Positions 2,254 through 22,088 of a stretch of DNA of 61,035 bases are shown in pieces. The first letter of the stretch is position 1. Each line of letters opens with the position of its first letter. A program made the translations under genes and the position numbers. The notes beneath the pieces were generated by a model. The model was given only the letters and a program-made list of their open reading frames with translations, made no database searches and was not told the DNA's origin. Origin of the DNA: a virus; IMG/VR virus record IMGVR_UViG_3300025141_017123, positions 1-61,035 of that record. One strand, given 5' to 3'.

Positions 2254-2347
2254 TATGATTCTTGATACCTATTTTGGTTTAAATATGTCACATATAATAT
2301 TTAATTGTAGAACTCAGACATTATGCTTTTAAAATTCAATGGGAAAG

Positions 2348-2857: not shown

Positions 2858-3054
2858 TAGTAAACTATTCCATGTTTAAAATAAGCTTTGACTAAGCTCA
2901 TAATTCCTTCGTCAAATATTAACAAACGAAGCCAGATTTTACTAATTGTTAATAACAGGTTTTTAATATTAAAGCATGCAACCTGCTTACATCAGCCCTG
3001 ATAAAACTATCATCTTTACAAAAAGAATCTTGGCTTAATTTAAACCTTAATTTA

Positions 3055-3074
3055 TACTGTATATACAAACAGTA
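3055..3074 (+). promoter_or_regulatory. LexA (SOS) box
   Basis: TACTGTATATACAAACAGTA matches the gammaproteobacterial LexA consensus (CTGT-N8-ACAG) in both halves. It lies 12 bases before the umuD-like start codon, so transcription of the umuDC-like pair is expected to be SOS-controlled. Confidence 0.9.
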
Positions 3075-3086
3075 TTCGAGGTGTGT

Positions 3087-3503: not shown

Positions 3504-4747
3504 ATGCTGTCGCTTTTTACGCGAGTGCGGAGAAAGTATTTGACCCTTCGATTCGCTCTAAACCAGTTGTAGTACTTACAAATAACGATGGATGTATTTG
3601 CGCCATATGCCCTATCGCACGAAAGTTGAACATCCCCAAATTTCAGCCTTACTTCAAGATTAAAAACTATTTAGAACAGCACCATGTCGTGGTTCGCTCT
3701 TCTAATTATGAGCTTTACGCTGATTTAAGTGAAAAAATGATGACTGTTATAAATCGGTTTTGTGATGACCACTATGTATACAGTATCGACGAATCGTTCT
3801 TACGATTTACGGGGTTCACTAAAATCATCAATGACTGGGCTGACTATGGGCAAATAATACGTCGTGCAGTATGGCGAGAAACAGGGTTACCCGTTGGTGC
3901 TGGCTTTGGCACAACACCTACCCTAGCAAAAGCGGCCAACCATGCAGCCAAAAAACTATCAGGGTACAACGGTGTAGCCGTCATTAACGATGAAAAATCT
4001 CGTAAAGAAATACTGATGCGCATGGATGTCACTGATGTCTGGGGTATTGGCTCTCGTTTAGGAAAAAAACTTAAGTTAATGGCGATTAATACTGCCTGGG
4101 ACTTAGCTTGCCAAAACCCTAAAGCAATGAGGCGCATGTTCAGTGTTGTCGTAGAGAGAACTGTTAGCGAATTAAATGGTATTACCTGTTTAAGTTGGGA
4201 TGAAGTAAAGCAAGATAAGAAAGAAATATACTCAACTAGAAGTTTTGGTGAAAGAGTCACTGATTTAACAACATTAAAATCGGCTTTAGTAACACATGCC
4301 GCCATTGTTGGGCGAAAACTCAGAAGACAACAATCATTAACAAAGCGTGTAGTTATTTTTGCTGCCAGCTCGCCGCATGAAGATGAGCACTACAAAAAAT
4401 CACTTCTATATGAGTTTCCCATACCGACATCAGACACCAGCGTTATAGCTAAGGCTGTTTCTGCGGTTATTGATAAAATTTATAAACCGAATACGCGCTT
4501 TTATCGCTGCGGTATAGGAGCTATAGAATTAGAAAGTGAATCATTTCAACAAGCCGATATGTTCTCTGTGAGTGAGGATAAACCTAAAATGTTGGAATGC
4601 TTAGATGTAATAAATAAACGCTATGGTGTAGGAACTTTATCTATAGGTAGTGAAAAGCTAACAAAGTCATGGAACATGAAAAGGGCTTTTTTATCGCCCC
4701 ACTACACAACCCGCTGGTCAGACATTCCTATCATAGATTGTGATTGA
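3488..4747 (+). CDS. umuC: UmuC-like Y-family DNA polymerase
   Basis: 419 residues against 422 in E. coli UmuC, so full length. The Y-family catalytic residues are present: FALVDAVAFYAS (Asp6) and YSIDESF (Asp101-Glu102). The helix-hairpin-helix region GIGSRLGKKLK and the C-terminal little-finger segment follow as expected. It copies damaged DNA with low fidelity as part of polymerase V. It starts inside the umuD-like gene, implying coupled translation under the LexA box. Such umuDC pairs are common on islands and plasmids as well as at the core locus, so its chromosomal status is open. Confidence 0.92.
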   Translation: MFALVDAVAFYASAEKVFDPSIRSKPVVVLTNNDGCICAICPIARKLNIPKFQPYFKIKNYLEQHHVVVRSSNYELYADLSEKMMTVINRFCDDHYVYSIDESFLRFTGFTKIINDWADYGQIIRRAVWRETGLPVGAGFGTTPTLAKAANHAAKKLSGYNGVAVINDEKSRKEILMRMDVTDVWGIGSRLGKKLKLMAINTAWDLACQNPKAMRRMFSVVVERTVSELNGITCLSWDEVKQDKKEIYSTRSFGERVTDLTTLKSALVTHAAIVGRKLRRQQSLTKRVVIFAASSPHEDEHYKKSLLYEFPIPTSDTSVIAKAVSAVIDKIYKPNTRFYRCGIGAIELESESFQQADMFSVSEDKPKMLECLDVINKRYGVGTLSIGSEKLTKSWNMKRAFLSPHYTTRWSDIPIIDCD

Positions 4748-5086
4748 ATCAGTTAAGTTAATATTGAATATGTTCCATTCCGACCAATCAAAGCATGAAC
4801 ATTTGTAGTTAAGCTCGGTTGTGGCTTTTTCACAACTTTGAATTTTAAGTCTTTGTTACAAATTCATCTAGACTTGGACTAAAAGCATAATGAAAAGGGA
4901 TATTACTCTTATCACCATAAAGCAAACGCTTATACTCACTGGATTACCTTAAGTATAGGATCTCTTAGCAAACAAAGGTAAGACCGGCTCCTTAATCGTG
5001 CAGGTCATGTAATATGCACTCACACTCATATTCTCAGTAAGCAGCCATGCTATAATTCGAAAATATTTCAGTAAAAGGAAGTTACA
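4748..5086 (+). other. intergenic region with a weak stem-loop
   Basis: 339 bp after the umuC-like gene. A small hairpin (GTTGTG 4818-4823 with CACAAC 4831-4836, T-rich loop) could end umuDC transcription, but it lacks a proper T-run after the stem. The 3' part must contain the promoter of the ATPase gene at 5087, which has AAAAGGAAG just before its ATG. No gene was recognised. Confidence 0.4.
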
Positions 5087-7432: not shown

Positions 7433-7933
7433 TTAATTTCAGACAATTAACTCCCTATTTCGATATTCGTTTTAAGATGAAACCGTTCTCTACATACAAG
7501 TTAACCCCAGCTTCCCGAAGCGGTATTCGGATTAGTAAGTTAAATGCCAAACTAATAGAGCGTGGCTAAATCAACTTGAAACTCAAAATGGGGCAGAAAC
7601 GAGTTTGGATTTCCCAGCTTTCACTAGACACCGGCTTATAATCTTAAAGTACAAAACGGAAGTAGACTTCCGATTTTAAGCCTATATTGACATATTTCGG
7701 AAGTAAACTTCCGTTTCTAGGGCTCAAAGGTAGTTATCGGAAATATATTTCCGTTTTTGATAGCGGTGTTAACCTAGATAGCTATATTAGCTACTTTTCA
7801 GGGTCTTATTTGAGCGAGAAGCAGACGGTCGAGTAAACTCGTTTTTGGACAAAAGTTGGTTAGTGCAATGGCACTAACTCAACCTTAATAGATTAGTAAA
7901 AATATCTTGGAGACCTTAAACAATTGTAGCAGC
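7433..7933. other. intergenic region between two convergent genes
   Basis: 501 bp lying between the 3' ends of the ATPase gene and the leftward gene at 7934. It holds a copy of a 17-bp dispersed motif (7589-7605), three regularly spaced palindromes (7657-7753) and a further hairpin with arms TTAGTGC/GCACTAA (about 7862-7880). No gene was recognised. Confidence 0.6.
7657..7753. repeat. three 16-bp palindromes at 40-41 bp spacing
   Basis: CGGAAGTAGACTTCCG (7657-7672), CGGAAGTAAACTTCCG (7698-7713) and CGGAAATATATTTCCG (7738-7753). Starts are 41 and 40 bp apart, about four helical turns. As RNA each would form a 6-bp stem with a four-base loop, and each is followed by a T-rich stretch. They sit between convergent genes, so bidirectional terminator or protein-binding site are both possible. 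Confidence 0.85.
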
Positions 7934-9289
7934 TTAGCCCCAAATGTTTCGAGAAATCAAAGTATACGGCTTCTGCTGATTGTCTATAGTTTTAGTTTCT
8001 GGATCATAGAAGTAGTGAGTGATTTCGTAATTTCTAAACTCATCTAATGATAAGGGTTTTTCGGCGAAAGGATTATGGTGAATTTGAAGCCCATCTAAAT
8101 GAGTTTCAAAGTGAATTTCATTACTTTTCATTTCCATCACTAGACCTTGAGATGGATGATACCAACTGGAACGAATTTCACGTTTAAGGTTGCTTTGAGT
8201 GATCGCTTTTCCAAGAGTAGCTGTAGTTGAGAAAATAACTGCACTAATATGTTTAAACTTATCCGTTGTGAAGAGCCCCAGTTCCAATGGAGTTTTGCCA
8301 TTTTTTATCGCTAGATTCACTTCAACTTCAGAAAACCCATTATTTTTATCTACACCCTGTGCATATAGAACTCGGATAATAGCCTCATTATTTTGGATGA
8401 AGAACAATGGCTGCTCATACGGTGCAACGGCTATTACGTAAGGGTTGGATTTAACATGATCGTGTTTTTCGTAGGTTTCGAAATATTTTTTACTTTTAAA
8501 GTCAATTGCGTTCAACAATCGTACACACGAAAAATTAAGGAACTCTTTATCCTCAAGTAGATTTGCCCCATATCCATCCCACTCTGGTATAGAATCATGA
8601 GCATGGTTAGCAGTAACCGCCTCAACGTTAATTAGGTTTCCGTTAAGCGTATTTAAGGTGAAATCAGGGCTAGGTTGAGTAAAATCGACCTCCATCTTCA
8701 AATCTTTAAAGCACTGGAAAAGATATAGTTCCCAAAAAGACGAGTTGAATGTTTCCTGAAACTGGCGATTAAATTTGTTGTCCCTGTCTTCAAAACCACT
8801 TGCCCAACGGTTGAGTACTTCTCTCACTGGCGCATACTCTTCGGAGAGTATATGTTTAAAATTCGGATTTAATTTCTTACTTTCAGCAACAATATCAAAT
8901 AATGCTAAAGGCTTCTTCGCTGTTCTATACTCAGAGCTCAAGAAATAGCGTCCAAACATATAATGTTTTAGCACGTATTCGACAATCGTGATTCTAACCA
9001 TTGCAGCGATTTCACGATCTTTTTTCTCAGCTATAAATGCAGTTACATCTAATAAATACTGCTGAGGACCTGTTGGTCCATCGACGTCTTCACAGCTATT
9101 TTCAAGAGCACCTTTGTAATCAGATTCATTGATATAAAACCTCTGTACTCGGTCAACTACAAATGCAGTCCCATGCTGCGCAGCATCAAGCTCTTCAAGA
9201 ATAAATTGCCATGCGACACTTTTGTTATTCTCTTTAAAATCAATTATTTCTATGATTTTCTGAACTGCCGCATTAATAAATTGTTGCAT
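7934..9289 (-). CDS. PD-(D/E)XK-like hypothetical protein
   Basis: 451 residues, ATG at 9289 with AAGG six bases upstream. The middle of the protein reads FWELYLFQCFKDL (Glu187), SPDFTL (Asp209) and INVEAVTAN (Glu223), the order E...PD...E-x-V seen in restriction-endonuclease-like folds. The usual lysine after the third acidic residue is missing, so it may be a variant or inactive nuclease. N-terminal ~170 residues are helical with no motif I know. It converges on the zinc-hook ATPase gene, separated by the palindrome array; whether they form a system is unknown. Confidence 0.55.
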   Translation of the reverse strand: MQQFINAAVQKIIEIIDFKENNKSVAWQFILEELDAAQHGTAFVVDRVQRFYINESDYKGALENSCEDVDGPTGPQQYLLDVTAFIAEKKDREIAAMVRITIVEYVLKHYMFGRYFLSSEYRTAKKPLALFDIVAESKKLNPNFKHILSEEYAPVREVLNRWASGFEDRDNKFNRQFQETFNSSFWELYLFQCFKDLKMEVDFTQPSPDFTLNTLNGNLINVEAVTANHAHDSIPEWDGYGANLLEDKEFLNFSCVRLLNAIDFKSKKYFETYEKHDHVKSNPYVIAVAPYEQPLFFIQNNEAIIRVLYAQGVDKNNGFSEVEVNLAIKNGKTPLELGLFTTDKFKHISAVIFSTTATLGKAITQSNLKREIRSSWYHPSQGLVMEMKSNEIHFETHLDGLQIHHNPFAEKPLSLDEFRNYEITHYFYDPETKTIDNQQKPYTLISRNIWG

Positions 9290-9690
9290 TGATTACCTTA
9301 CTTAAAATCCATCAGCTAACAACTTCTATACGACTCTGCGCCGCATTTAACGCCGATATAATACAGTCTTTTCAAAATTTAATCGATAGGTTAGTGACTG
9401 CAGTGAGAGGTTCGATCGCTTAGAGAAGCATAATTTCTAGATGTACTGTATTCGGATAACTTTTGGTAGGGCAAACGCATTCCAACAAAATATGAATGAG
9501 TATTTACGCTAGCTTTTTTTGGGGCAAAGGCGAGTTAAATACATAACCCGCCTCTGGACAATTATGAGTTAGTGTCGACGGGCGGTTCTGTGCCATACAG
9601 CGGTCGTTAGCGCTTCGCTAAGCGGAAAATAATGGTTGGCTATAATCGCATAGCGATGGCCAACTGTTATTTTTCCGTTTAAGCAACTAG
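9290..9690. other. intergenic region with long inverted repeat
   Basis: 401 bp between leftward genes. It contains the 17-bp motif variant at 9520-9536 and a long imperfect inverted repeat at 9618-9683. No promoter for the gene at 9289 was pinned down beyond its ribosome site, and no gene was recognised. Confidence 0.5.
9618..9683. repeat. imperfect inverted repeat, cruciform-like, possible degenerate attC
   Basis: Arms of about 23-26 bp (9618-9640 and 9658-9683; CTAAGCGGAAAATAATGG against the complement of TGTTATTTTTCCGTTTAAG) enclose a 17-bp loop that is itself palindromic (ATCGC-TAT-GCGAT). Its place just after the stop of the gene at 9691 is where an attC site would lie, but GTTRRRY and RYYYAAC core sites are not clear. 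Confidence 0.6.
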
Positions 9691-9969
9691 TTAGTTTTTG
9701 TCGCCTATAGCATTTACTTCAAAGAAACCGCCACATGGTCGAGTTCCATCTTCAATACCATTACAAAACAAACCTTTAGTTGAAAGGTTGTTTTCAATCA
9801 TTTTATTAATTACATCGTCTACACGTAAGCTTGGCTTGCTGCATAATTCTTTAGAGCAATATATAGGAGTATTTATATCAGAATAACTTCGTGATATGGG
9901 TGGTTCACTACTACCCATTTCGTCGAATTCAAAGATATAATTTTTAGTAATATTTTCTTGATTGGACAT
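9691..9969 (-). CDS. small hypothetical protein, possible cassette gene
   Basis: 92 residues from the ATG at 9969, chosen because AGGGTG precedes it by five bases; a start 12 codons upstream has no such site. It contains four cysteines, two in PIYCSKELC and two in FCNGIEDGTRPCGG, which could bind a metal, but no known family is apparent. It is the last leftward gene of the cassette-like row, followed by a strong inverted repeat. Confidence 0.5.
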   Translation of the reverse strand: MSNQENITKNYIFEFDEMGSSEPPISRSYSDINTPIYCSKELCSKPSLRVDDVINKMIENNLSTKGLFCNGIEDGTRPCGGFFEVNAIGDKN

Positions 9970-10253
9970 ATTCACCCTTTTGAAAACTAACAGCTTATTG
10001 AACACGGTTTTGGTGGTTTATAACACACCAAAAAGGCCTATATTACATACCCTGATAATTTCACCAATAATTATCATTGTAAACACGTAATTACAATAGC
10101 TAGGAATTAAGCTCGTTATTTTGCATCAAAACGACGGATAGTAATGTTATCGGGCAAGGTTAGGCTCCTACTCGAAATAAATTTAACTTTTCAGTGAACA
10201 GCCTAGCTTCGCAAAAGTACCAACCGCTGACATTAGCAACGCACTAAAAAAGC

Positions 10254-10724
10254 CTACGATTGCACCGTGAACCCACATTGAAGACATCGTTCGCCACCAT
10301 AGTTTTCATTGTAACTAAGCCCTAAACCACTGCCACATTCAGGGCAGAATTCTGATATATCTAGTGATGCCCATTCCCAAACGTCCGCATACTCTGGAAT
10401 ACCATCACTATCATGCCCTATCAGTTCACCAGCATTAGTTTGTTTGGCTATGTAGCTACAGTAACTGTGCACTTTTAGTAGTTCTAAAACTATCTCGTGA
10501 TTTATTTCGAACCACTCGCCAATAACGTTTACAGTGCTGTATTTCTGATGAAATTCTTTTTCTAGTTTCCGGTCTTTATCGCTGTTGATCCACCCCATAA
10601 GAGCTAATCTTCGGGAGTTGCCCGTTTGAAGAGTTTTAAGACGTTGAGTTGGGTTATTACTAATACCGATCTTAATTCTTTGGTTCACCAAGTCTTCATT
10701 TTCAATGATAAAGTAGAGTGCCAT
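10254..10724 (-). CDS. GIY-YIG (T5orf172-type) domain protein with C-terminal zinc ribbon
   Basis: 156 residues from the ATG at 10724, preceded by AGGAG at good spacing; the longer reading frame adds 14 residues with no ribosome site. The N-terminal half (ALYFIIENE, IKIGISNNPTQRLKTLQTGN, KLEKEFHQKYS, GEWFEI) matches the T5orf172/Mug113 branch of GIY-YIG nucleases. The tail has CPECG and CLQCG, a zinc ribbon. Small proteins of this type occur in phages and gene cassettes. No clear attC lies directly after it, so its membership of the cassette row is uncertain. Confidence 0.7.
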   Translation of the reverse strand: MALYFIIENEDLVNQRIKIGISNNPTQRLKTLQTGNSRRLALMGWINSDKDRKLEKEFHQKYSTVNVIGEWFEINHEIVLELLKVHSYCSYIAKQTNAGELIGHDSDGIPEYADVWEWASLDISEFCPECGSGLGLSYNENYGGERCLQCGFTVQS

Positions 10725-10885
10725 ATATCTCCTTGTAGCCCTAACGATTCTATAGAAAAACCCCAACAGCCGAATTCAATTAAATAATAAGCTCCTACAG
10801 CAAACCTAAGAGCTTTCTCACACTAGGTAATGCATTTGGAACTCATAAAAGCGGTCTATTTTCTTAAAAAAGAGTAATTCTACAG

Positions 10886-10945
10886 CCTCAACGCCAGCAG
10901 CAAGCGCGCCGCTTTTTGGCATCGCCTTGACTGCTTTTGTTAGCC
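10886..10945 (-). other. attC-like recombination site (integron cassette)
   Basis: 60 bp. On the minus strand it runs from GGCTAAC to GTTGAGG. Internal arms AAGCAGTCAAG and CTTGCTGCT pair with two extra-helical bases, the hallmark of attC. The TAA stop of the upstream gene (10940-10942) lies inside the first core, as is common in cassettes. Confidence 0.68.
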
Positions 10946-11209
10946 TCTTGCTTCGCGCCCGGGCTCATCTTCGGCTACTCGGTAGCGCCAGTAACGATCC
11001 GGCTTTACCCAGACAACATTATGCTCAGTAATGTTCTTAAACTCAGCTAAGACTTCACGACCTAACACAAGATTACCGTCTGCATTTTCGCGCAAGAGCT
11101 TTTCGGCACCATCCTTTATAAGATGATCGACCGCATCGTCTTGGTAGATGCAGCCATCTTTTTCAATCTGAGATAGCATCCATGAAGTTGTTTGCTTAGC
11201 ATCTGTCAT
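10940..11209 (-). CDS. DUF6953-like small protein
   Basis: 89 residues. WMLSQIEKDGCIYQDDAVDHLI, then GNLVLGREVLAEFKNIT and VVWVKPDRYWRYR match a family of small cytoplasmic proteins (DUF6953, function unknown). It begins 2 bp after the stop of the DUF2158-type gene, so the two are translated as a pair. Its stop codon is embedded in the attC-like site. Proteins of this kind are frequent cargo of integron cassettes. Confidence 0.65.
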   Translation of the reverse strand: MTDAKQTTSWMLSQIEKDGCIYQDDAVDHLIKDGAEKLLRENADGNLVLGREVLAEFKNITEHNVVWVKPDRYWRYRVAEDEPGREARG

Positions 11210-11211
11210 GA

Positions 11212-11397
11212 TTAAGACTTATCTACGGATTCTAGGGAGTCGTTAGGAAAATTACCCTGCTCAAGTTTCTTCCCCGCAAACCACTGGCAAATATAGTACG
11301 CAGCATGCTGTGACGGTACAGAACGAACAGTCATCTCTGGACCGCCAGACTTGATCTTTACGATATCTCCGACTTCGAAATTAGCGTTTTTTGTCAT
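11212..11397 (-). CDS. YodC-like DUF2158 family protein
   Basis: 61 residues with GAGGTG before the ATG. The sequence VGDIVKIKSGGPEMTVRSV followed by CQWFAGKKLEQGNF is the DUF2158/YodC signature (VGDxVxLKSGGPxMTV ... CxWF). Function unknown; the fold is a small beta barrel. It is the first gene of a two-gene cassette between attC-like sites at 11427-11481 and 10886-10945. Confidence 0.8.
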   Translation of the reverse strand: MTKNANFEVGDIVKIKSGGPEMTVRSVPSQHAAYYICQWFAGKKLEQGNFPNDSLESVDKS

Positions 11398-11426
11398 GAA
11401 TACACCTCTTATTTTTTCAGTTTATT

Positions 11427-11481
11427 GGCTAACGCCGCGAACAGCTGCGGCTTTGTAGTGGATTGTTTTGCATTGTTATAC
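11427..11481 (-). other. attC-like recombination site (weaker)
   Basis: 55 bp. On the minus strand it runs from GTATAAC to GTTAGCC and contains GCCGC...GCGGC. The long paired arms seen in the other sites are only partial here, so it may be degenerate. It lies between the stop of the gene at 11486 and the DUF2158 start. Confidence 0.55.
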
Positions 11482-11485
11482 GCGC

Positions 11486-11929
11486 CTACTGGTTTAAATA
11501 GGGGCTCATTTTGTTTTTTAGCTCTGTTAGCTGCTTGCCAAACCAAAAAAATGTTTCTTGTGAAATTTTAAACCCTTCAACAAACTCAGGGGTTCCTGAA
11601 ATCTCCTTTCCATGCTGTTTAAAGCCGGTAATCTTGAATGACTCCGAATGCATTAAGTCAAGAAGCTCGAAAATACTGGAATCTTCAGAAAATAGAAACC
11701 TGGATGCTTCTTTACTGGCAATAAAAGAACGGTGGGTTTCTTGGCTAACTTTCTCATCAACAAGCTCCTGATAGAAGCGGAGTGTGTCTGTGTATACAGA
11801 AAAGCGCTTATTATAAAGATCAAGATTTAACTTTCTTTTATTAATTGCCATTTGTTGATATGCGATATAAGCCAGAAATGCAGCCATTATCGCTGACGGA
11901 ATAAGCTCTATTAACTTTGAACAAATCAT
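11486..11929 (-). CDS. hypothetical membrane-anchored protein, cassette gene
   Basis: 147 residues with one N-terminal membrane segment (LIPSAIMAAFLAYIAYQQ) and a helical cytoplasmic part (LYNKRFSVYTDTLRFYQEL and following). Proteins of this layout (short anchor, then a NKR-x-xVY helix) are seen as unnamed cassette or island cargo. No ribosome site is evident, which is usual for cassette genes. It is bounded by attC-like sites on both sides. Confidence 0.6.
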   Translation of the reverse strand: MICSKLIELIPSAIMAAFLAYIAYQQMAINKRKLNLDLYNKRFSVYTDTLRFYQELVDEKVSQETHRSFIASKEASRFLFSEDSSIFELLDLMHSESFKITGFKQHGKEISGTPEFVEGFKISQETFFWFGKQLTELKNKMSPYLNQ

Positions 11930-11950
11930 TTATTGCGACTCACTAATTTC

Positions 11951-12037
11951 GTATAACGCCTCACATCACCGGACACAAAAAGCCCAGCGAGGAACGAGCG
12001 GCGTTTTTTGTGATCCGAGTGCATGTGATTGTTAGCC
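11951..12037 (-). other. attC-like recombination site
   Basis: 87 bp. On the minus strand it runs from GGCTAAC to GTTATAC. The arms CACATGCACTCGGATCACAAAAA and TTTTTGTGTCCGGTGATGTG pair over most of their length with a few unpaired bases. It starts 7 bp after the stop of the gene at 12044. Confidence 0.75.
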
Positions 12038-12043
12038 AATTCT

Positions 12044-13276
12044 TTATTTATCTGACGGGATATCATATAGCTGTGTAGTAACAATTATTTCTTTTCCAGG
12101 CTCTGACTCCTTAATAAGAGTGTAGCGAGAGTCTCCGTCGGGATGATGAAAAACAGTCTTACGATGTTCCGGTAACGACTCCATTGCTTCATGCATCTTT
12201 TGCCTTACAGCATTAGAGTCTTTTGTTCGGTTAAATACCATCAGGGCGCATTTTGAGTCGCGCCATGTCAAATAGCCAAGAAGTTGGCTAACGGCGTCAT
12301 TAAATACTTTTTGGCCCCGCCAGAATTTACACTCAGCAATGAATACATTCTTATTTTCTTCTCGTATGAGAATGTCAGTTTTTCCTGACGCATTGAATGT
12401 TTCCCCAGTTGCCCCGCCTTCATAATGGCCATTTAACTGCAAAAGAAAATGATCGCGGATTGATTCTTCATCAAGTGAAGCAAATGACGCGGGATTACGC
12501 TCAATAACTAACGACATACTGCGAATGATTTCCAATATGTGCAGGTATTCTTTTTCATCGAGCACAGGTTCCGGCTGATAAGAGCCCGTCTCCACCGTAG
12601 GTTTTTTCGTTGGTTTCGTTCGTCGTTTCGCGGGGATAGTGAAAGTCGGTGATGCATCTGCTCTCTTTACAGGAATACCTAACGCGGCAACAGCACCAGT
12701 GGTTGCCTGAGCCAGTTCTCTTTTCCTTTTTAGTGCCTGCTTCACCGTGTTTGGAACAGAGCCATTATGATTCGATACATCATTTTTAAGGTAACCGATG
12801 GCATCTTCTAAAGACTTTATATTTCGATTGATATCTGCCTTAAGCTTGTCCGGATTCGCTGAATCATCTGGAAAGCTTACGCTCATTATAATCTCACCAC
12901 CTCTTACTTCTATGTCTGGGTAACCACCCGAACTCCATGTAGATGCGCGCACTCTCCAAAGCATAGGATCACCTTCAAATGGAATGGCTATATCTATCTT
13001 TGTTCCTCTTACAACAGCCCGCTCTCCTAGAAAGACCGCTCTACTGAAATCATGACTCACGTCAATCTGGGTACCAGATTGGCTTTTTATATACTGCTGA
13101 TCTGAATGAAGAACTATAGGCTCAACTAAGGCCTTATAAATATAATGTTCTTCAAGCTCTGCTTCTGATGCTTTCAAAACATATTCATTGCCCAGCGCCT
13201 TAATCTCATTGGTCACTGAATCAACGATGTTTCTGAAAGTGGCAAAAGTATCTCCCTCTCTAAACGGGTACATCAT
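12044..13276 (-). CDS. PD-(D/E)XK nuclease-domain protein, cassette gene
   Basis: 410 residues. The C-terminal domain has GKTDILIREENKNVFIAECKFW, giving Asp301, Glu316 and Lys318 of the D-x14-E-x-K motif of restriction-endonuclease-like (Mrr-type) folds. The N-terminal ~200 residues carry a beta-rich region (TKIDIAIPFEGDP) I do not recognise, joined by a basic linker (KRRTKPTKKP). The second Met (13273) has the better-spaced GAGGAA. Large for a cassette, but attC-like sites flank it on both sides (13293-13351, 11951-12037). A role in cutting foreign DNA is inference. Confidence 0.7.
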   Translation of the reverse strand: MMYPFREGDTFATFRNIVDSVTNEIKALGNEYVLKASEAELEEHYIYKALVEPIVLHSDQQYIKSQSGTQIDVSHDFSRAVFLGERAVVRGTKIDIAIPFEGDPMLWRVRASTWSSGGYPDIEVRGGEIIMSVSFPDDSANPDKLKADINRNIKSLEDAIGYLKNDVSNHNGSVPNTVKQALKRKRELAQATTGAVAALGIPVKRADASPTFTIPAKRRTKPTKKPTVETGSYQPEPVLDEKEYLHILEIIRSMSLVIERNPASFASLDEESIRDHFLLQLNGHYEGGATGETFNASGKTDILIREENKNVFIAECKFWRGQKVFNDAVSQLLGYLTWRDSKCALMVFNRTKDSNAVRQKMHEAMESLPEHRKTVFHHPDGDSRYTLIKESEPGKEIIVTTQLYDIPSDK

Positions 13277-13292
13277 TGTTCCTCTTTCTTTT

Positions 13293-13351
13293 GGCTAACA
13301 TTTTAGTATTTATGCGACACGCTGTTTGTGTTGCATAATCACTTGTTGGAC
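13293..13351 (-). other. attC site, 59-base-element type
   Basis: 59 bp exactly. On the minus strand it runs from GTCCAAC (perfect RYYYAAC) to GTTAGCC. Inner arms AGTGATTATGCAACAC and GTGTCGCATAAATACT pair with two mismatched bases. It would belong to a cassette upstream that is no longer present, now replaced by the IS91-like region. Confidence 0.78.
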
Positions 13352-13614
13352 TGAGCCGCTACCTGCTCGGTGTGTCAGAGTTGGTGTTGTTTATGCTATG
13401 GGAATTTGCTTTTTAGAGGCTCTCACTTTCCTCGCTAATTTAATCAGCTTAGCGAGTGTTATGTAAGCTTTCCCTGCATTGCTCAGCGCTTATTATGTAT
13501 TCATTACACCTAAATTTCCCTTAATAAGCAATTATATTTTTTACACGTACAGAGGCCGCTAGCCTGAACAATTAAGCAGGTTAACTTATTGATTTGATGC
13601 AGCAAGCAAGGCTG
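13352..13614. other. intergenic region, probable IS91-like 3' end
   Basis: 263 bp between the attC site and the transposase stop. It should contain one end of the IS91-family element; such ends lack inverted repeats and I could not place the exact boundary. Small repeats around TTAGCGAG/CTCGCTAA (about 13432-13457) form a hairpin. No gene seen. Confidence 0.4.
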
Positions 13615-14706
13615 CTAACTCGTTCGCGCTACTTTGTTTGTCGCCTCATCTAAATTCATCACACCAATAAGTCGTAAAGTACCCGTCTTGCATGACTGGC
13701 AAGGCCAATGGGGTATTAATCGTTCTTGCTCTACCTTCGGCTTCACCGCTTTGCATGGGGTTGCTGATACTTGAGCCTTTATTAACCCTAACTTTCGCTT
13801 GCGACACGCATTAGCTAAAAAGCCATAGTGGCGAATGCGCATAAACCCTTTCGGCAATACATGTTGTAAGTAACGATGTAAAAATTCGTCACAACTCAGT
13901 GTCATGACCTTATCGCGGTTATTATCTGCATAATCGTGGTATTTAAAGCTCACTGACTGCTCATTCGCTGACACTAATCGCGATTCTGACATCACGCCTT
14001 TTCGTGTATAACGAGCAAGGTAACTAACTAGCTTTTCACTGTACGTTAAACAGGCTTTGCTATACACGCACCATTTTGTTGGCGTGTTTATCTTCACGAA
14101 TGAACCATCTGATTCGTTTAACGCCGCCAGCATTTTTCCTCTAAACACTGTTGATAACGCTTTTACGGGGTATAAGTAGCCTTTTTCTATTTCATGCCAG
14201 TGCGTTTTTTCAAGTGCACCTGCGGGTATCAAACAATGCAAGTGGATATGCTGACTTAAGTTTTGCCCCCACGTATGCAGTACGCTTGTCATGCCTAACT
14301 GGCCATGCCTCTTTCGTTTCGCAAATTTGCTCAGCGTTTGCCATGCGGCTTTAAATAAACACTGGTACAACGCGCTTGGGTTATAGTGCGCAATGATATT
14401 CAACTCATGAGGGAGCGTAAAAACAAGGTGGAAATACCGACACGGTAATAAATCCTCTTGCTGTCTTTGCACCCACTTAGCCATAGCCATGCCTTGGCAA
14501 CGCGGACAATGACGGTCTCGACAACTACATCCAATCTTTTGCGACTCACCACAGTTATCACATTGCCATGCTTGGTAACCAAGCTGACCTGTTCTGCATG
14601 ATTGAAGGTGCTGACAGACACGCAGTTGTTGATAGCTCATCGTATGATGCTGTCGATAATTCTCAAGATTTGAGTTTAAAATATCAGCGAGATGCAAAGC
14701 GCTCAC
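13615..14706 (-). CDS. tnpA: IS91-family HUH transposase
   Basis: 363 residues. An N-terminal zinc finger (CDNCGESQKIGCSCRDRHCPRC) is followed by the HUH motif in QHIHLHCLIPAGAL and a later catalytic tyrosine region (YLARYTRKGV). These are the features of the transposase_32/IS91 family, which nicks single strands and replicates by a rolling circle. The start ATG overlaps the recombinase stop by four bases (ATGA), indicating coupled translation. The frame is intact and so probably functional. Confidence 0.93.
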   Translation of the reverse strand: MSALHLADILNSNLENYRQHHTMSYQQLRVCQHLQSCRTGQLGYQAWQCDNCGESQKIGCSCRDRHCPRCQGMAMAKWVQRQQEDLLPCRYFHLVFTLPHELNIIAHYNPSALYQCLFKAAWQTLSKFAKRKRHGQLGMTSVLHTWGQNLSQHIHLHCLIPAGALEKTHWHEIEKGYLYPVKALSTVFRGKMLAALNESDGSFVKINTPTKWCVYSKACLTYSEKLVSYLARYTRKGVMSESRLVSANEQSVSFKYHDYADNNRDKVMTLSCDEFLHRYLQHVLPKGFMRIRHYGFLANACRKRKLGLIKAQVSATPCKAVKPKVEQERLIPHWPCQSCKTGTLRLIGVMNLDEATNKVARTS

Positions 14707-15539
14707 TGTTTACCCCAACTCGCAAGCAAATCAATGCCGCCATGCCCTAATTCAGGTAACCAGTGTAAGTAACTTTGTGTCGTTTTAATATCACTGTGAC
14801 CAAGCTGATGTTGCAATTGATGAAGTAGCATACCTGATTCAAGTTGGTGTGTTGCATAAGCATGGCGTAAAGAATGTGGATTACAGTGCTTTAAGCCACA
14901 TGCTTGTGCATGTTTTCTCAATGCCTTTCTGAAGCTTGAGGGTGATATGGGTTTATCCATTAACAACCGCGAGTAAAACATCCAGCCCGTTGGATGATAC
15001 ATTTTCCAATAACAACGTAATTGATTCAGCACACTGTCTGATACAACCACATACCGTGACTTATCCCCTTTACCCTGTTCAATTAAAATGGTTTTACGCT
15101 GTCCATCTATGTTTTGCACTTTAATGTGCAACAGCTCGCCAATACGTAAACCACACCCGTAACACACCACTATTAACGTTTTTAGTCGCATATCATCCGT
15201 GCAGCTCTCTATCAGCCGCCGCATATCATCACGTGATAAATAGGTGGGTGCGCGCGACTTCACTTTTGGCAATGCGACATCTAAGTTCAATGGCCGGTGT
15301 AAAATATTCTTAAACAAAAACCAAATGCTGTTTATCTGTACTTTTTGGCTTGCTCTAGACAGTTTACGAATAGCGGGATCGTTAAAAAAGGCGTTAAGTT
15401 CGTCATCAGTAATCGAATCGAGTGGTCTATTAAAATAATGACTGAGTTTTAGTAAATGTTCACAGTAGCTTTTACAGGTACTTTGCGAATAACCACGATA
15501 GGTTATTTCAGTTTTGACTTGTTCAATGAGTGTATTCAT
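14703..15539 (-). CDS. tyrosine recombinase of IS91-type element
   Basis: 278 residues with an N-terminal SAM-like core-binding domain (SQSTCKSYCEHLLKLSHYF) and a full catalytic set: Arg in GCGLRIGEL, HSLRHAYATH (His-x-x-Arg), and LGHSDIKTTQSYLH (His and Tyr nucleophile). It lacks the extra helix block diagnostic of integron integrases, so it is not IntI. In this IS91 branch the recombinase accompanies the transposase; its exact role is unclear. Confidence 0.9.
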   Translation of the reverse strand: MNTLIEQVKTEITYRGYSQSTCKSYCEHLLKLSHYFNRPLDSITDDELNAFFNDPAIRKLSRASQKVQINSIWFLFKNILHRPLNLDVALPKVKSRAPTYLSRDDMRRLIESCTDDMRLKTLIVVCYGCGLRIGELLHIKVQNIDGQRKTILIEQGKGDKSRYVVVSDSVLNQLRCYWKMYHPTGWMFYSRLLMDKPISPSSFRKALRKHAQACGLKHCNPHSLRHAYATHQLESGMLLHQLQHQLGHSDIKTTQSYLHWLPELGHGGIDLLASWGKQ

Positions 15540-15541
15540 GA

Positions 15542-15576
15542 CTTACCTCCAAGTTATGGGATAACCCCAAGGTAAG
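15542..15576. repeat. palindrome just upstream of the recombinase gene
   Basis: Outer arms CTTACC/GGTAAG and inner GTTAT/ATAAC make a 35-bp interrupted dyad, three bases before the recombinase ATG (minus strand). Likely an operator or an end structure of the element. Confidence 0.6.
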
Positions 15577-15966
15577 TGTGGTTCAAATGGTAAGAATAGG
15601 ATCTCCGCGTAGCGGCTTAGTTCAACATTTTAATAGTGCGCTCATCGCGCATATTTCTGCCGACTAAACACTCATTTTTCTGCATGATATAGTTTTAACT
15701 AATAACCTAATGTATTACTATCACTAATTTTTCTAGAATTTTAAGTAAAGTTTAATAGAGCAATAATGCGCGCGTCGCTCATTTTCATGAATATATGCGC
15801 AAAGAACAGTTTAACCAATCAATTAACGACGATATTTAGCCACTTTCAATGACCGGTTATCGGTCATTTGCGACGCTCAACTAAACTCATTTTGGGGCAG
15901 AAACGAGTTATACCGGAATAGCTTCTTTTAGCACTCAGGCGTACTTAGGCAAAGAGCGATGACCAG
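15577..15966. other. intergenic region between the IS91-like element and the TOPRIM gene
   Basis: About 390 bp. It should hold the other end of the IS91-like element, the left inverted repeat (15781-15858), a GACCG-N5-CGGTC hairpin (15851-15865) and a copy of the 17-bp dispersed motif (15893-15909). No gene seen. Confidence 0.5.
15781..15858 (+). repeat. left copy of 78-bp inverted repeat
   Basis: Matches the reverse complement of 17636-17713 at roughly 85% by eye, including the shared blocks CAGTTTAACCAAT, ACGATATTTAGCCA and TCAATGACCGGTT. It lies on the 3' side of the TOPRIM gene. Confidence 0.85.
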
Positions 15967-17472
15967 TCATTCTGAAATAGTTTCGTTCTCAAACGTTTCC
16001 GCATTCATGGTAATTACTTTTATGTGATAATCGTACCTTGCGGATCTTGACTGTAAAACATAATGAAGTGTAGTTATAAATGGTCGTTCTTTCCCATTTA
16101 TAAAAGGGTTAGTAATGGCGTATTCACCAAGAATATTACCCCACTCTTCGCCTTTTAACCCTACGCCTCTTCTTGATAGAACTTTATATCTTTCTTCAAA
16201 TTTACTTCCACTTTTTATACCGGACCAGTCGCCTTTTGCTAGTTCATCAGTATTAATTTTATGTTTCTTATCCAGCGAAATTGCTAAATTAATTAATTCC
16301 TTGAGTTCAAAGTTAGCAAATTCAAAGTCGGGATTATTACAATTCACATAGCCAACAATATTACCTCTACTTACCTGAGTTTTTATGAATTTTACATTTT
16401 CAGATACATCTGTATCGAAGGTGATAATGCTAAACCTCTTTAGTTGTTTATCTTCTTTTAGGTTTTCAGCAAGAGTGAGAGGTATTGATTTTCTTTGACT
16501 AAGCAAACCTTTTAAATTTATGAGCTCAACGCCAGCTTGAGCTGCACTTGGGAGTATATTCTTTACGGCGTAATACTCGGTTTGACCTTCTAGGTACCAC
16601 TTCACAATACTACCTCTATATAAACCGAACTCAAACGCGATGTGTGATCTTAAAGATAATACATTATCAAGTGGACGCTCGTTACCATATAATGTTGTTC
16701 TTGCACCAGGAGCCCATTGACCAAACGCTTCATCCTCTTCCTTCCAAGTAACACCGTGAGTATCGAAAAATGCTAGCCTGATTAACTCCGCAATATGTTT
16801 GATCCACATACTTCCAGATATTTGACCTGTAATTCGCTCTCTTCTAGTCCAAGGTGAGCATCTCAATAACATATATAGATTACTGTTATCATCCAGACCT
16901 GCGCTATGAATGCGTAATTGCTCATGATAGTTATCCCATAACTCCGGCGATAATTTCTTTACCAAATCCAATGCCTTAACCCTATATTGATTAATCTCCT
17001 CGTCATACTTTCCTTCCGGAAAACTGTATGAAACTAAACCTGATATTGATGGCCAATAAATAGGTTCTAAAATAATCGCAAGGTCAGCTATGAGATCAAA
17101 TACTTTTACTTTATTACCTATGTTGTCATTTTCTGGTAAAAAGTTTATACATGCATCAAGACATTGTGAAAGAGACTCTTTATTCAAAGTAGAGGTTGCT
17201 GATATCCTTATCCTGCATAATTCGACTCCCTTGAACACCGGCAATAACCTGAAGGGATGAAATAAATATTTGTGATTGTTATTATTGTCATTAGTTAACC
17301 AACCTAATTCACAAAACTTGCTAGGATCACCTTGCAAGACTCCGGAGACAGCTATACCTCGGTCTTTTATAAATCTAATAAACTTAGATTCCCGCATAAG
17401 CTTATTTTGGAGTAGCCTATAACGTTGTTGTGAAGTATCTCTAAAAAACTCTTTTACGTAAAACTCGTCCAT
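15967..17472 (-). CDS. TOPRIM-domain protein of unknown function
   Basis: 501 residues; AGGAG lies nine bases before the ATG. The third quarter holds WYLEGQTEYYAV (Glu295) and FSIITFDTDVSE (Asp353, Asp355), the acidic signature of a TOPRIM fold such as that in OLD-type nucleases. No ATPase motif is seen, so it is not a complete OLD protein, and the N-terminal ~280 residues are unfamiliar. It is a single gene bracketed by 78-bp inverted repeats, next to an IS91 element, in a row of defence-like genes. A defence function is inference from context. Confidence 0.6.
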   Translation of the reverse strand: MDEFYVKEFFRDTSQQRYRLLQNKLMRESKFIRFIKDRGIAVSGVLQGDPSKFCELGWLTNDNNNNHKYLFHPFRLLPVFKGVELCRIRISATSTLNKESLSQCLDACINFLPENDNIGNKVKVFDLIADLAIILEPIYWPSISGLVSYSFPEGKYDEEINQYRVKALDLVKKLSPELWDNYHEQLRIHSAGLDDNSNLYMLLRCSPWTRRERITGQISGSMWIKHIAELIRLAFFDTHGVTWKEEDEAFGQWAPGARTTLYGNERPLDNVLSLRSHIAFEFGLYRGSIVKWYLEGQTEYYAVKNILPSAAQAGVELINLKGLLSQRKSIPLTLAENLKEDKQLKRFSIITFDTDVSENVKFIKTQVSRGNIVGYVNCNNPDFEFANFELKELINLAISLDKKHKINTDELAKGDWSGIKSGSKFEERYKVLSRRGVGLKGEEWGNILGEYAITNPFINGKERPFITTLHYVLQSRSARYDYHIKVITMNAETFENETISE

Positions 17473-17635
17473 GTCAATGTATCTCCTAGGTGAAAAACGT
17501 TTGAAAAATTTTATCTATTAACAAGAAAGGTTACCATACTTACTTTTTATATAACGTATTTTTAAAAATTCTAATATAAATTGAATAAGTGACCGAGCAC
17601 AATTGACACTTTTGCGAAGTTCGGCTGTGAGCGAA

Positions 17636-17713
17636 AACCGGTCATTGAGATTGGCTAAATATCGTAGTTTGTTAATTGGTTAAACTGCTCTTTACGTATA
17701 TATTTATGGAAAT
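17636..17713 (-). repeat. right copy of 78-bp inverted repeat
   Basis: Reverse-complement partner of 15781-15858. It overlaps the leader of the lipoprotein gene at 17750. Its outer neighbour (17607-17634) is also repeated directly at 18611-18638. Confidence 0.85.
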
Positions 17714-17749
17714 AAGTGATTCGCACATTATTAAGCATTTAGGGAGAAT

Positions 17750-18502
17750 ATGGTGCCATTATCGAAGAGTTTATTTATGTTACTTGTCCTTTTACTAAGT
17801 GCATGTTCGACGAAACCATTTGATGGCCCTAATTCATCGATCAAGAAATTTACTTACTACGATGAACAAGATGTGAATGACATGTATAGCGCGTTGTTTT
17901 CTGATCATAAAATATTGGGGAAAATTAATAATAATGATGTCATAAGTGACAAGTCACTATATTCAATAGCTGAAAAATATAAAGCAGATATTATTTTAGC
18001 TAATATGAGATTATTAAGTGTTGGGGCTCCTCGAATAGCGGGGCAAGTTAATGTAAACGGTAGTTTTTCTATTTACGAAACCGTAGGAGAAAGTAACTGG
18101 TCAAACCAATATCTATTTTTACAACAACCCAATAAAAAAAAGTATTTTTGGGAAAAAGAGTTACCTAAAAATATACAGTTAGCAACAAGAACTGAATGGG
18201 TTCAATGCGCCACTGTCGAATGTGAAAGAACATTCGGTTTTATTGATGTTGTTAACTTTGAAACAACGCAATATATGATTGTAAAGGGAAATAAAATACC
18301 TTTTGCAAAGTTTGAGTTAAGCTCAGGAATTGGAGTTGTATTGGATATAGTTGATGGCATAACACCTCATGTAGCTACATTTGAAAAACAAACCCACGGT
18401 TTTAAAATAAAAAGCAAAGAAAGCAATAGATTATTTATTCCTCTAAAGTTATACAATAGAATATCAAAAGAAGTAAATAAACCTGACATTACGATATATT
18501 AA
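17750..18502 (+). CDS. predicted lipoprotein of unknown function
   Basis: 250 residues. AGGGAG precedes the ATG at 17750. A signal peptide ends in the lipobox LSAC with Cys19, so the mature protein should be anchored in a membrane facing the periplasm. A Cys pair (QCATVECERTFG) is visible around residue 155. I do not recognise the rest. It is AT-rich and lies between 28-bp direct repeats (17607-17634, 18611-18638), which suggests acquisition as a unit. Confidence 0.65.
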   Translation: MVPLSKSLFMLLVLLLSACSTKPFDGPNSSIKKFTYYDEQDVNDMYSALFSDHKILGKINNNDVISDKSLYSIAEKYKADIILANMRLLSVGAPRIAGQVNVNGSFSIYETVGESNWSNQYLFLQQPNKKKYFWEKELPKNIQLATRTEWVQCATVECERTFGFIDVVNFETTQYMIVKGNKIPFAKFELSSGIGVVLDIVDGITPHVATFEKQTHGFKIKSKESNRLFIPLKLYNRISKEVNKPDITIY

Positions 18503-18772
18503 ATGCTTACAAATCACTTAAACGGATAAATAACAGTAGCTATGCAAATTATAGCCAAAGAGGACAAGTCTTAATTTCAGACATTATAACTTCTGAACGT
18601 CTGTTTATGGCACTTTCGCGATATTCAGCTGTGAGCGATCAGTAATAAATTATGATATATGAAGTCAAGGTTTTATCCCGTTGACTCTATAAATTATAAA
18701 TATGAGCGTGCCGATAATAGAGATGTATGTGATACAAGCACTATTAAATTGCTAAATTAACTAGAGGTTTTT

Positions 18773-19551
18773 ATGCTTACTTTTAACGAAGTTCTCTCAT
18801 TAAAGAGTGATATATTTAGATAAATATCAGGTGAAATATGTGAGACATAAAGATAGTCGAAAAGAATATCGTGAATTAATAAAAGATCGTGGAGAATTAT
18901 TAAAATATCAAGCAGAGCAAGCTAATAATGTATTTGAAAAATGTGACTATATCGCGTCATTTGTAGGAATAGAGCAATCTAAAGCTGTATTTATCGGAAT
19001 GTTTAAAGTTGATGGAGCTAGTTAAATATGTTCTAAATGAGGTGGAGGGATTTGAAGACTTTAAAGAGCGTTTAGTTATTGATTGGGGAAGAAGCGCAAT
19101 AAAATGGCATCAGTGGGTTAAGGCCAATCCTAAAAATGTCGCTGAAATTTTACCTAAAGGCTACCTTGGTGAATTCCCAGGTCTTTTAAACTTTACGCTA
19201 GATTATAGTGAGCTTAGAAAATTAGGAGAAAATTTAAGTGCAAATCGTGAGTGGTATCTACAATTATCTTCGATAAATGGTATTTATCTAATATTGGATA
19301 AATTGACAGGAGATCAATATATCGGTTCTGCGTATGGTAAAAAAGGTATTTGGCAACGCTGGAGTGAGTACTCTAAGACTGGACACGGTGGCTATACATT
19401 ACTCAAAGAGCTGTGTTTAATTGACAATCAATATTATAAAAACTTCCAATTCACAATTTTACAATCTTTACCTAGTAACCTTTCAGACTCCTTAAGCTTT
19501 CTCTATCAAAGCCCTCTAGTATCTATCATTATGTATTACCTCCAAAAGTAA
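18773..19551 (+). pseudogene. GIY-YIG nuclease family gene, frameshifted
   Basis: An ATG at 18773 opens MLTFNEVLSLKS and stops early. The same protein continues in another frame at about 18807 (RHKDSR, EKCDYIASFVGIEQSKAVFIGMFKVDG), then in a third from about 19020 (KERLVIDWGRS, FPGLLNF, GIYLILDKLTGDQYIGSAYGKKGIWQRW, KTGHGG). Intact relatives read all of these in one frame, with GIY-YIG represented here by GIYLI...YIGSAYG. The C-terminus also departs from the family after ILQSLPSN. At least two frameshifts make it a pseudogene unless sequencing errors are responsible. Confidence 0.75.
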
Positions 19552-19582
19552 AAAATAGGCAGATCAGAAGGCGATGAGCGTC

Positions 19583-19930
19583 TTATGTATCTTCCATAAT
19601 ATCTTTAAATGCTATGCGTTTTAACTGCGTGCCATCGCGGTATCCTTTTACTATCAAATCTTCTAATACAGCACCAGTGTAGAATGTGTAACCATTCTCT
19701 TCACCAACGGGGAGCTCATATGTAGACCCTGATATTTGAGGCCAAGTCCAGTAATTCCCGCATGATGATAATTTAGGTAGAACCATTGAACCTGAACTAA
19801 CTCTCCACTCATCATCATTTCGCCATGAACAAAACAATACATAACATGGTTTATCATCAACTGTTTGAAACGTTAAAACAACCCATCCGTCTGGCCTATG
19901 TTTTATATTCAATTTCATCCCTTTATACAT
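19583..19930 (-). CDS. hypothetical protein
   Basis: 115 residues, convergent with the GIY-YIG pseudogene. It is rich in Trp, Tyr and Gly, looks like a small beta-rich protein (GWVVLTFQTVDDKPCYVLFCSW and following), and has no motif I recognise. The start is uncertain: the first ATG (19930) has no ribosome site, while AAAGGG directly abuts the fifth codon. Confidence 0.45.
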   Translation of the reverse strand: MYKGMKLNIKHRPDGWVVLTFQTVDDKPCYVLFCSWRNDDEWRVSSGSMVLPKLSSCGNYWTWPQISGSTYELPVGEENGYTFYTGAVLEDLIVKGYRDGTQLKRIAFKDIMEDT

Positions 19931-20626
19931 TAAAATTAAACTTAGTATTCATATTAATCCTAACTCAATAAATCAAATTATTAGTTTTCCTAGAAAATGA
20001 AAGAAAAAATCATTAAATATTTTTGATACCTTATCGATAGAAACAAAGTCTGTTGATCGATATTTAAAAGGAACAAGTGACGTTAAGCACCTTATTACAA
20101 TTGGTACTACTGCAGGTCAATTTAACGATGTCGTGCAGATGTTTTGTCAAAATCCGGCCCTGTGATTCATAGAACGAAAAGCTGGATTGACGATGTAATT
20201 AGGTAATACAACAATTGGGTTATCACCTTTAACAGTTGGTAAGTACCAAAAGTTATTTTGCCATATTTACGTAGTGTAATATCACAGCAAAGACAATGAA
20301 TTGTCAAAGCTCTTATAAGCTTTATATGAAAATTTAAGAAAACTACAAACTAAGTTATCAACCCAGCTCAATACTTAAATAAAGAACAATTAGATTTACA
20401 TGCAAGAGAAAAAATAGGTCTAGTCGTTAGAGGTAGAGCATAGGACTAGTATAACATTTCTTTCTTAATGGGTGGCCAAAATCACTGTACCACTACAGTA
20501 CATGTACCAAATAGTTGAAAATAAATAAAAACTCCATAAAATTCAGCTGGCCAACTTGAAAAAATCGTGTGTACTTACTCTTTTACAAATATTAGTTAAA
20601 TAAGGTAAATTAATACATAATCAAAG
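19931..20626. other. decayed DNA left of the prophage
   Basis: About 700 bp without an intact gene. A readable fragment at 20025-20165 is listed separately. The rest is AT-rich with scattered stops in all frames and is best read as degenerate host or island sequence. Confidence 0.5.
20025..20165 (+). pseudogene. fragment of an unidentified coding sequence
   Basis: An open stretch without a start reads DTLSIETKSVDRYLKGTSD then VKHLITIGTTAGQFNDVV and ends at TGA. The composition is protein-like, but stops close both sides and I cannot name the parent gene. Confidence 0.35.
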
Positions 20627-20700
20627 TGTAAGGGGTTGTTCATTTCTAGAATAATGATGATATTGTAAGGGGTTGTTCATTTCTAGAATAATGATGATAT
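20627..20700. repeat. 37-bp perfect tandem duplication, candidate left phage end
   Basis: Units 20627-20663 and 20664-20700 are identical and each begins TGTAAGGGGTTG. DDE phages of the Mu type end in 5'-TG and carry repeated transposase sites at their termini, so this is the best candidate for the left end. It precedes the first prophage gene by 245 bp. Confidence 0.6.
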
Positions 20701-20945
20701 GAGGATTTTCGCCCTCGTCTTTTGGAAAAGCCTATTATTACTGGGTTTAGTGAACCCTGAGCGCAAAATTCAATAAATCTAGATTACGCTTGGTTTTAGA
20801 CGAAACTTGTTCAAACTGACTCATTATCCAATCATTCCTGCTCATTATACGTTTAGAATTAGATCATTGTTGATCGTTTAACTTTCCTTTAAATACACTT
20901 TAAACGCCTTTTAAACACTGTTTAAATATTTTGAGCTGCTGATAT
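20701..20945. other. left-terminal noncoding region of prophage
   Basis: 245 bp between the 37-bp duplication and the stop of the head morphogenesis gene. It holds a GGGTT-N5-AACCC hairpin (about 20740-20754) that could end the long leftward transcript, and the first 11-bp TTTAAA array (20877-20926). Confidence 0.5.
20877..20926. repeat. five TTTAA(A/C) motifs at exact 11-bp spacing
   Basis: Motif starts at 20877 (TTTAAC), 20888, 20899, 20910 and 20921. It lies in noncoding DNA at the left end of the prophage. See also 28593, 30653, 40193, 45046 and 52548. Confidence 0.85.
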
Positions 20946-22088
20946 TTAAACTTTTTCGGCAGCTACAATTGTATTAAATGTTGGGCCTAGCTCTACAGTG
21001 ATCATAAAACCTTGATACGATATTTTTACTTGATTGCCTATATAAGCAAATGTATTTGGTTTTTGAACAGCGTTCATTAGTTCGTGAACTTGTTCAATTG
21101 CTAGCTGGCCAGTTAAGAACTTTTCAATTTGAGCACTGCTGATAGTAACAGCGCTACTATATATAGGTGCGTTTTTACGTGATAGCTCGTTTAGTAAATT
21201 TACAGGCAAGTGCCCTAACGTAAATTGCTGGGTATCTGGTACCGACTTTTTAAGCGCTAACTTTGCTGCATGTAAGTTTACCTGCTTTATATAGTACTGC
21301 TGAGATTTTAAAACTGCTTCGTTAAATTGTGGTACCGCTAGCTTTTGAATGTCAGTTGATATAGTCATAACTGATTTTCCCGCTGCAATGTCTGCGCCTA
21401 GCCATGCTTTACCAGGATTATAATCCCAACCCAAATCAATGCCTGGTAACTTACTCAGTTCTTCACCTGTTGATGGGTCTACAAATTTAAATGACTCAGT
21501 AAACTTTTTAACTGATTCTGGTTTAGTTACTGATAATCCCATGCGTGCAATATCACGCGCATTAAGTGATACCACCTTGCACCTGCAGTTATAACCATTC
21601 GGCGGATAATGCGTATCCCAAAACGAATGATCCACTGCCAGTAAAATGTAATTCCACTTACCGTGATCAGGTCTTACGCGGCTATCACCTGCAGTTAAGT
21701 ATAATAAATAAGGTCTGCGCTCTTTTAAACGCTCTTGTTGTTGCCAGCGTCCAGCTGCACGCGCAGTGTTTTTGTTGTTTTGATAAATAACTTTTGTACG
21801 CCAACCCCGTTTGCCATTGTATGACCAACCGTGATCATCAACTATTTTGTCAAAGCGTTTTCTAAAGTCCGATATAGTCTCGCCGTCACTTATCGCTTTA
21901 TCTACTGCTTTATATAGCTCGTTTATAATTTCGATTTGTGTTGCACCGGCAACGGTAAATGCTTTGGCGTGAATTAAGCCCTGTAAGTCTTTATATGACT
22001 CACTGGTAAGCTTAATTTTATCTTTGAAATGAGAAATGGCTTCCTCGAACTTAACAAGGTCGCCATATTGTGGAGCTAGTAAGGCCAT
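20946..22088 (-). CDS. phage head morphogenesis protein (Mu gp30/SPP1 gp7 family)
   Basis: 380 residues. The family domain covers about residues 75-172: VIYQNNKNTARAAGRWQQQ, YLLYLTAGDSRVRPDHGKW, FWDTHYPPNGYNCRC, with the typical His, PPNG and NCRC motifs. Proteins of this family sit near the portal and take part in procapsid assembly or early DNA release. It is the last gene of the leftward arm, downstream of holin, terminase and portal genes. The C-terminal ~200 residues are not part of the known domain. Confidence 0.85.
   Translation of the reverse strand: MALLAPQYGDLVKFEEAISHFKDKIKLTSESYKDLQGLIHAKAFTVAGATQIEIINELYKAVDKAISDGETISDFRKRFDKIVDDHGWSYNGKRGWRTKVIYQNNKNTARAAGRWQQQERLKERRPYLLYLTAGDSRVRPDHGKWNYILLAVDHSFWDTHYPPNGYNCRCKVVSLNARDIARMGLSVTKPESVKKFTESFKFVDPSTGEELSKLPGIDLGWDYNPGKAWLGADIAAGKSVMTISTDIQKLAVPQFNEAVLKSQQYYIKQVNLHAAKLALKKSVPDTQQFTLGHLPVNLLNELSRKNAPIYSSAVTISSAQIEKFLTGQLAIEQVHELMNAVQKPNTFAYIGNQVKISYQGFMITVELGPTFNTIVAAEKV

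Follow-up and report, generated by a model that had tools for sequence, protein, structure and literature searches.

Layout of the locus

The window, by which we mean the whole stretch of 61,035 nucleotides that was analysed, is a virus record of which only the right part is phage. A Mu-like prophage carrying terminase, Mu F-like and transposition proteins occupies approximately 20664–61035 and is inserted at about 20664. Among prophage loci, 27 match positions 18501–21200; the match ends at 20589–20664 in 21 of them, at 20795 in one and at 20946 in five, the last position being the contig end of those five loci. The left part is host DNA with similarity to Pseudoalteromonas plasmids: 1463–4771 is 90% identical to NZ_CP027525, and 1519–4748 matches both NZ_MN400773 and NZ_CP011038 at 84% identity. 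The inverted repeats that are the subject of this study are located in this host part (Table 1).

Table 1. Features of the host part of the window, from left to right, with the basis of each assignment.
Feature	Position	Strand	Basis or remark
PD-T7-5 candidate defence gene	7934–9289	−	PADLOC
Second lineage of head-like sequence	9987–10196	−	Comparison
attC-like site	10889–10942	−	Recognised by eye; its score of 9.0 is no higher than in shuffles
attC site	11951–12034	−	84.5% identical to a Providencia plasmid site
PDC-S54 candidate defence gene	12044–13276	−	PADLOC
Right end of the YR+IS91 unit, resembling attC	13293–13351	−	Similarity to other IS copies stops at 13295–13296
IS91-family transposase	13615–14706	−	Family search
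Tyrosine recombinase (YR) of 278 aa, with about 29% identity to IntI	14703–15539	−	Below the IntI cut-off
Putative head 1, whole: attI, leader (presumed Pc) and 60-bp tail	15624–15866	−	Comparison with the intI-adjacent loci L095 and L096
501-aa protein, OLD-like TOPRIM domain by relatives	15967–17472	−	Between the two tails
Copy 2, putative truncated head without attI junction (profile positions 140–243); right arm	17628–17732	+	Profile
250-aa protein, no family match	17750–18502	+	ORF; start 17 bp past copy 2
Third head fragment, a weak match to the junction side, preceding the UzuA-like gene	18684–18751	+	16.9 bits, E 3e-4
UzuA-like gene, profile positions 100–254 of 278	19009–19551	+	PADLOC

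The first-pass annotation described a single gene enclosed by 78-bp inverted repeats at 15781–15858 and 17636–17713. Both observations hold: these arms are 86% identical, and the ORF for the 501-aa protein stands alone between them, on the minus strand. At full length the arms span 15762–15866 and 17628–17732, 105 bp each, with 87 of 105 positions identical, and their pairing is far beyond chance (E ~1e-22, BLAST within the loci set). Immediately beyond both arm ends, the identity per 20 bp is 0.15–0.45, the background level. No target duplication was detected at the arms, the best outer match being 5 bp long and off the arm ends, and no empty site without the arm-gene unit was found. The tail region of copy 1, the left arm, is 91–92% identical to copies on five other replicons compared with 83% to copy 2, indicating that the arms are not derived from each other. 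A local duplication of copy 1 into copy 2 was rejected on these values.

The left arm belongs to a recurrent module

Copy 1 lies within a 243-bp module (15624–15866), whose 15762–15866 portion constitutes the left arm. In the plasmid collection, 27 records match 15600–15866 in whole or in part (14 Pseudoalteromonas, 12 Vibrio and 1 Catenovulum), and the module is also present on one viral contig. It recurs on Pseudoalteromonas plasmids and chromids. In two loci, L095 and L096 (NZ_CP013139 and NZ_CP133570), the match to 15624–15801 lies directly 5′ of a divergent, annotated integron integrase. A profile built from copies lacking intI recovered these two loci, with scores of 129 and 121 bits. 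PMC9229058 describes an integron integrase, a homologue of SalintIA, on the Pseudoalteromonas megaplasmid pPBSW1 (NZ_CP013139).

At the inner edge, strong similarity stops near 15866 in the tail-bearing rows of a 19-row alignment. The edge is not fully sharp, as weak similarity continues to about 15909 in L003/L130, L005 and L094. A dispersed short motif containing TTTTGGGGCA occurs at 15877–15909, at about 9497–9570 and at 7571–7605, and also past the tail in L003/L130 and L005. Separately, a palindromic dispersed repeat of about 48 bp (AATGACCGGTTATCGCTCTTTGCCGAAGTTCGG...-like) is found at 15922–15971, 17600–17646 and 18601–18649, at head tails and in intergenic positions; the same repeat is present in L004, L006, L088, L090, L091, L093 and L095. 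It is possibly a recombination or insertion point. No Rfam family reached the gathering threshold in window positions 1–20700.

Module copies resemble integron heads

We compared 29 copies of the module in which the head end is present. Left out were hits below 15 bits, those whose match begins later than profile position 5 (L107, copy 2 of the window and the second pieces of L118 and L129), and the duplicates L130 (of the L101 copy) and L127 (of the L118 copy). The 29 are not all independent: 16 alignment rows trained the profile, L112, L125 and L128 agree in score and junction, and one YR gene is common to six heads. GTT is present at the junction in 24 of 29 copies, as checked in a 9-base stretch around the junction, for which about 0.1 is expected by arithmetic rather than from a shuffle control. 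The exceptions are L088, L104, L116, L118 and the window fragment at 18684–18751. The junction of head 1 reads GTTGAAC (15620–15626, minus strand). An ORF of at least 100 aa that starts within 100 bp of the junction and points away from the module is found in 27/29 copies, compared with a mean of 0.22 at random places drawn from the same loci; with a minimum of 60 aa, every copy has an ORF at the junction side (29/29). Hairpins resembling attC (score at least 10) are located on the junction side of 7/29 copies and on the tail side of 0/29, a comparison that is not blind, since the attC core was narrowed to AACAA after the sites had been seen. An alignment of eight attC sites gave no consensus pairs. 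The integrase gene intI stands beside 2 of the 29 heads, most loci being represented with 1.5 kb of flank. Taken together, the adjacency to intI elsewhere, the GTT junction, the ORFs on the junction side and the attC-like sites on that same side suggest that the module is an integron head.

Genes and attC sites around the two arms

The tyrosine recombinase next to copy 1 scores 168 bits against TIGR02249, for which the cut-off is 265. A tblastn search of the window with an IntI returned only this gene, at 29% identity, and no complete integron was found in the window. The YR+IS91 unit (13295–15623) is placed exactly at the attI junction, as it is in all six heads that carry it, the other five being L005, L101, L103, L105 and L109. 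Where checked, the unit has an attC-like end, as a cassette would. In the window this end (13293–13351) forms a hairpin with a score of 9.0, within the range of shuffles.

The attC site at 11951–12034 is the only firm one in the host part; the others are weak. Its Providencia counterpart is located between two cassettes of an array headed by intI. A first attC scanner reported nine sites on two strands, compared with 1–5 per strand in 10 shuffles, and thus no excess. A second scanner found one site scoring at least 11 in the host part, compared with 0 in six shuffles; in the prophage it found one site scoring at least 12 in one of two stretches.

Two further sequences resemble the module. The stretch 9987–10157 is 75% identical to a sequence beside intI in an Aliivibrio plasmid, and the fragment before the UzuA-like gene is 63–69% identical by BLAST to L090, L092 and L095. 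No sigma-70-like match was found on the reading strand of either head. The PD-T7-5, PDC-S54 and UzuA candidates lie close together, forming a defence-rich stretch beside the prophage.

The gene between the arms

The TOPRIM label given to the enclosed gene in the first-pass annotation is supported only through relatives that share an EGxTE motif; the 501-aa protein itself, which has EGQTE and DTD motifs, passes no family model in Pfam, PADLOC or NCBIfam. Nine relatives align with it over the EGxTE, conserved D and PDFE-like motifs. Eight relatives were scanned against OLD-like_TOPRIM (PF20469): one passes, at 23.3 bits against a cut-off of 23.2 and at the EGxTE motif it has in common with the 501-aa protein, four match weakly and three do not match. 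The protein resembles the OLD-like TOPRIM proteins in its EGxTE motif followed by a conserved D, and in having one relative above the cut-off. It differs from them in that it has no family match of its own and that no ATPase domain was detected. The structure model has a pLDDT of 46.5 and gave no fold match at an E value of 0.001 or better, and sequence searches of the PDB with the protein returned nothing significant.

One relative was found in the plasmid collection and two in genome contigs; none was found in viral contigs and phages. The relatives are scattered, being present in 7 of 301 genomes of one phylum, a count that includes the genome of L008. In L008, the relative is flanked by genes for type I restriction-modification and HerA, which match MADS models as well; the cluster there (604–11613) comprises type I restriction-modification, kinase and HerA genes matching mad2, mad5, mad6 and mad8. 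The relative may be a component of MADS-like systems. No defence neighbours were seen for the relatives in L007, L009, L135 and L138 within the stretches examined. From its family and the PADLOC genes around it, the 501-aa protein is likely to be the product of a defence gene.

Discussion

Based on the sequence comparisons above, we suggest that the two arms are very probably two copies of an integron head, consisting of attI and a leader, with a tail of about 60 bp in the place of intI. Because the heads stand tail to tail, each would face outwards. By position, attI and the leader would also include the cassette promoter Pc. Head 1, apparently whole, would face the minus-strand genes: the YR+IS91 unit exactly at the cassette junction, followed by PDC-S54, the attC site of that gene and further genes. 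Copy 2, which ends just before the plus-strand gene at 17750, appears to have lost its attI half and is therefore not recognisable as a head on its own. We infer that the head promoter would read the cassettes, and that these would have been loaded by an IntI acting in trans, encoded elsewhere in the cell. Since head 1 and copy 2 both face outwards, the TOPRIM gene lies behind both heads. It is probably a separate defence gene with a history of its own, outside both cassette sides.

The opposite orientation of the two heads raises the question whether their pairing is a coincidence. A chance pairing of dispersed repeats had been proposed when the repeats were first noticed. The copies are indeed dispersed, but the repeats have the features of integron heads, and pure chance is not proven, because another close tail-to-tail pair exists: at NZ_CP011027 39568–41835 (L006 14569–16836), two copies about 1.8 kb apart enclose cytochrome b and NYN-domain genes. 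On 14 whole replicons this is the only other opposite pair within 5 kb, and one of its two members is tailless. A wider tail-to-tail pair, of 9.2 kb, is present on NZ_MN400773. These two pairs count slightly against pure coincidence and, together with the palindromic dispersed repeats at the tails, would be consistent with a favoured arrangement, produced by an insertion hot spot or by inversion at those repeats. The window and 14 replicons together yield two close pairs, a number too small for a judgement, and the remaining copies are solitary or far apart; we consider a favoured arrangement rather unlikely. The copies are linked to cargo, which in the window is located on the far side of each arm from the TOPRIM gene.

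Alternatively, the module could represent the left (ter) terminus of the YR+IS91 element, in which case solo copies would be remnants of that element. The YR gene is the first ORF in 6 of the 29 heads, and the YR+IS91 copies include the module. At the same junction, however, the other 23 heads carry different first ORFs. The L096 module stands beside intI with no IS91 within its 8-kb stretch, and the similarity that the IS copies alone share does not start until past the junction, at 15600–15623. As the module is also found beside intI and before other genes, this origin was mostly rejected, and we regard it as improbable.

Least probable of all, and very much so, is the mobilisable single-gene unit of the first-pass annotation, that is, a non-autonomous transposon or MITE-bounded unit in which the arms are terminal inverted repeats and the TOPRIM gene is moved by a transposase in trans. 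Integron mobilisation units bounded by repeats exist, and both the inverted orientation of the arms around one gene and the NZ_CP011027 pair around two genes would fit such a unit. Terminal repeats are fixed at their outer edge. Here, the same module runs past the outer end of copy 1 to 15624 and strong similarity stops near the inner end, which is the reverse of terminal repeats. This mainly inner conserved edge, the absence of a target duplication and the fact that the arms are not each other's closest relatives led us to reject a transposon, and the single other close pair on 14 replicons, with its tailless member, also argues against it. As a caution, an inverted pair around a gene does not amount to a transposon until the conserved edge of the repeat is known.

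The integron heads proposed here share features with several known systems. The attI-Pc region of pPBSW1 (NZ_CP013139) is alike at 76% over 15600–15801 beside intI, with the same junction and with genes on the same side; the window differs in lacking intI, in carrying the tail in its place and in having one of its two copies truncated. A CALIN, a cluster of attC sites lacking an integrase, likewise combines cassette-like genes and attC without intI. CALINs are, however, defined by their attC sites, whereas the conserved piece in the window is attI plus leader, in most cases followed by one gene or a few. An integron mobilisation unit, or integron pieces bounded by MITEs, also bring integron parts and inverted repeats together; in the window the repeats themselves would be the integron parts, and no target duplication is seen. 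According to PMC9229058, ISShvi3 of Shewanella is an IS91-like element beside attC in the variable region of an integron, with a cassette-like structure. The YR+IS91 unit resembles it as an IS91 element of cassette-like form in such a region, and differs from that description in having the tyrosine recombinase first and in sitting at the attI junction (6/29 heads). Integrons, CALINs and an IS91-like element beside attC are thus already known, the last from PMC9229058. For integrase-less attI heads, a literature search of partial coverage found no paper.

We also considered a broader proposal, that attI heads without an integrase form a unit that spreads on its own in Pseudoalteromonas. Such a unit would keep attI and leader, end in a palindromic repeat, receive cassettes (here often defence genes) through IntI in trans, and owe its multiplication on plasmids and chromids to its tail or to a YR+IS91 unit docked at attI. 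We put this forward as a doubtful possibility.

Integron finders search for intI and attC. To our knowledge, an attI bereft of its integrase goes largely unreported. The putative heads in the window point towards candidate phage-defence genes, in a plasmid-like stretch next to a Mu-like prophage. If such heads are common, counts of the sites able to hold and express cassettes would be too low, and in marine bacteria many single genes may follow the leader of a lost integron.
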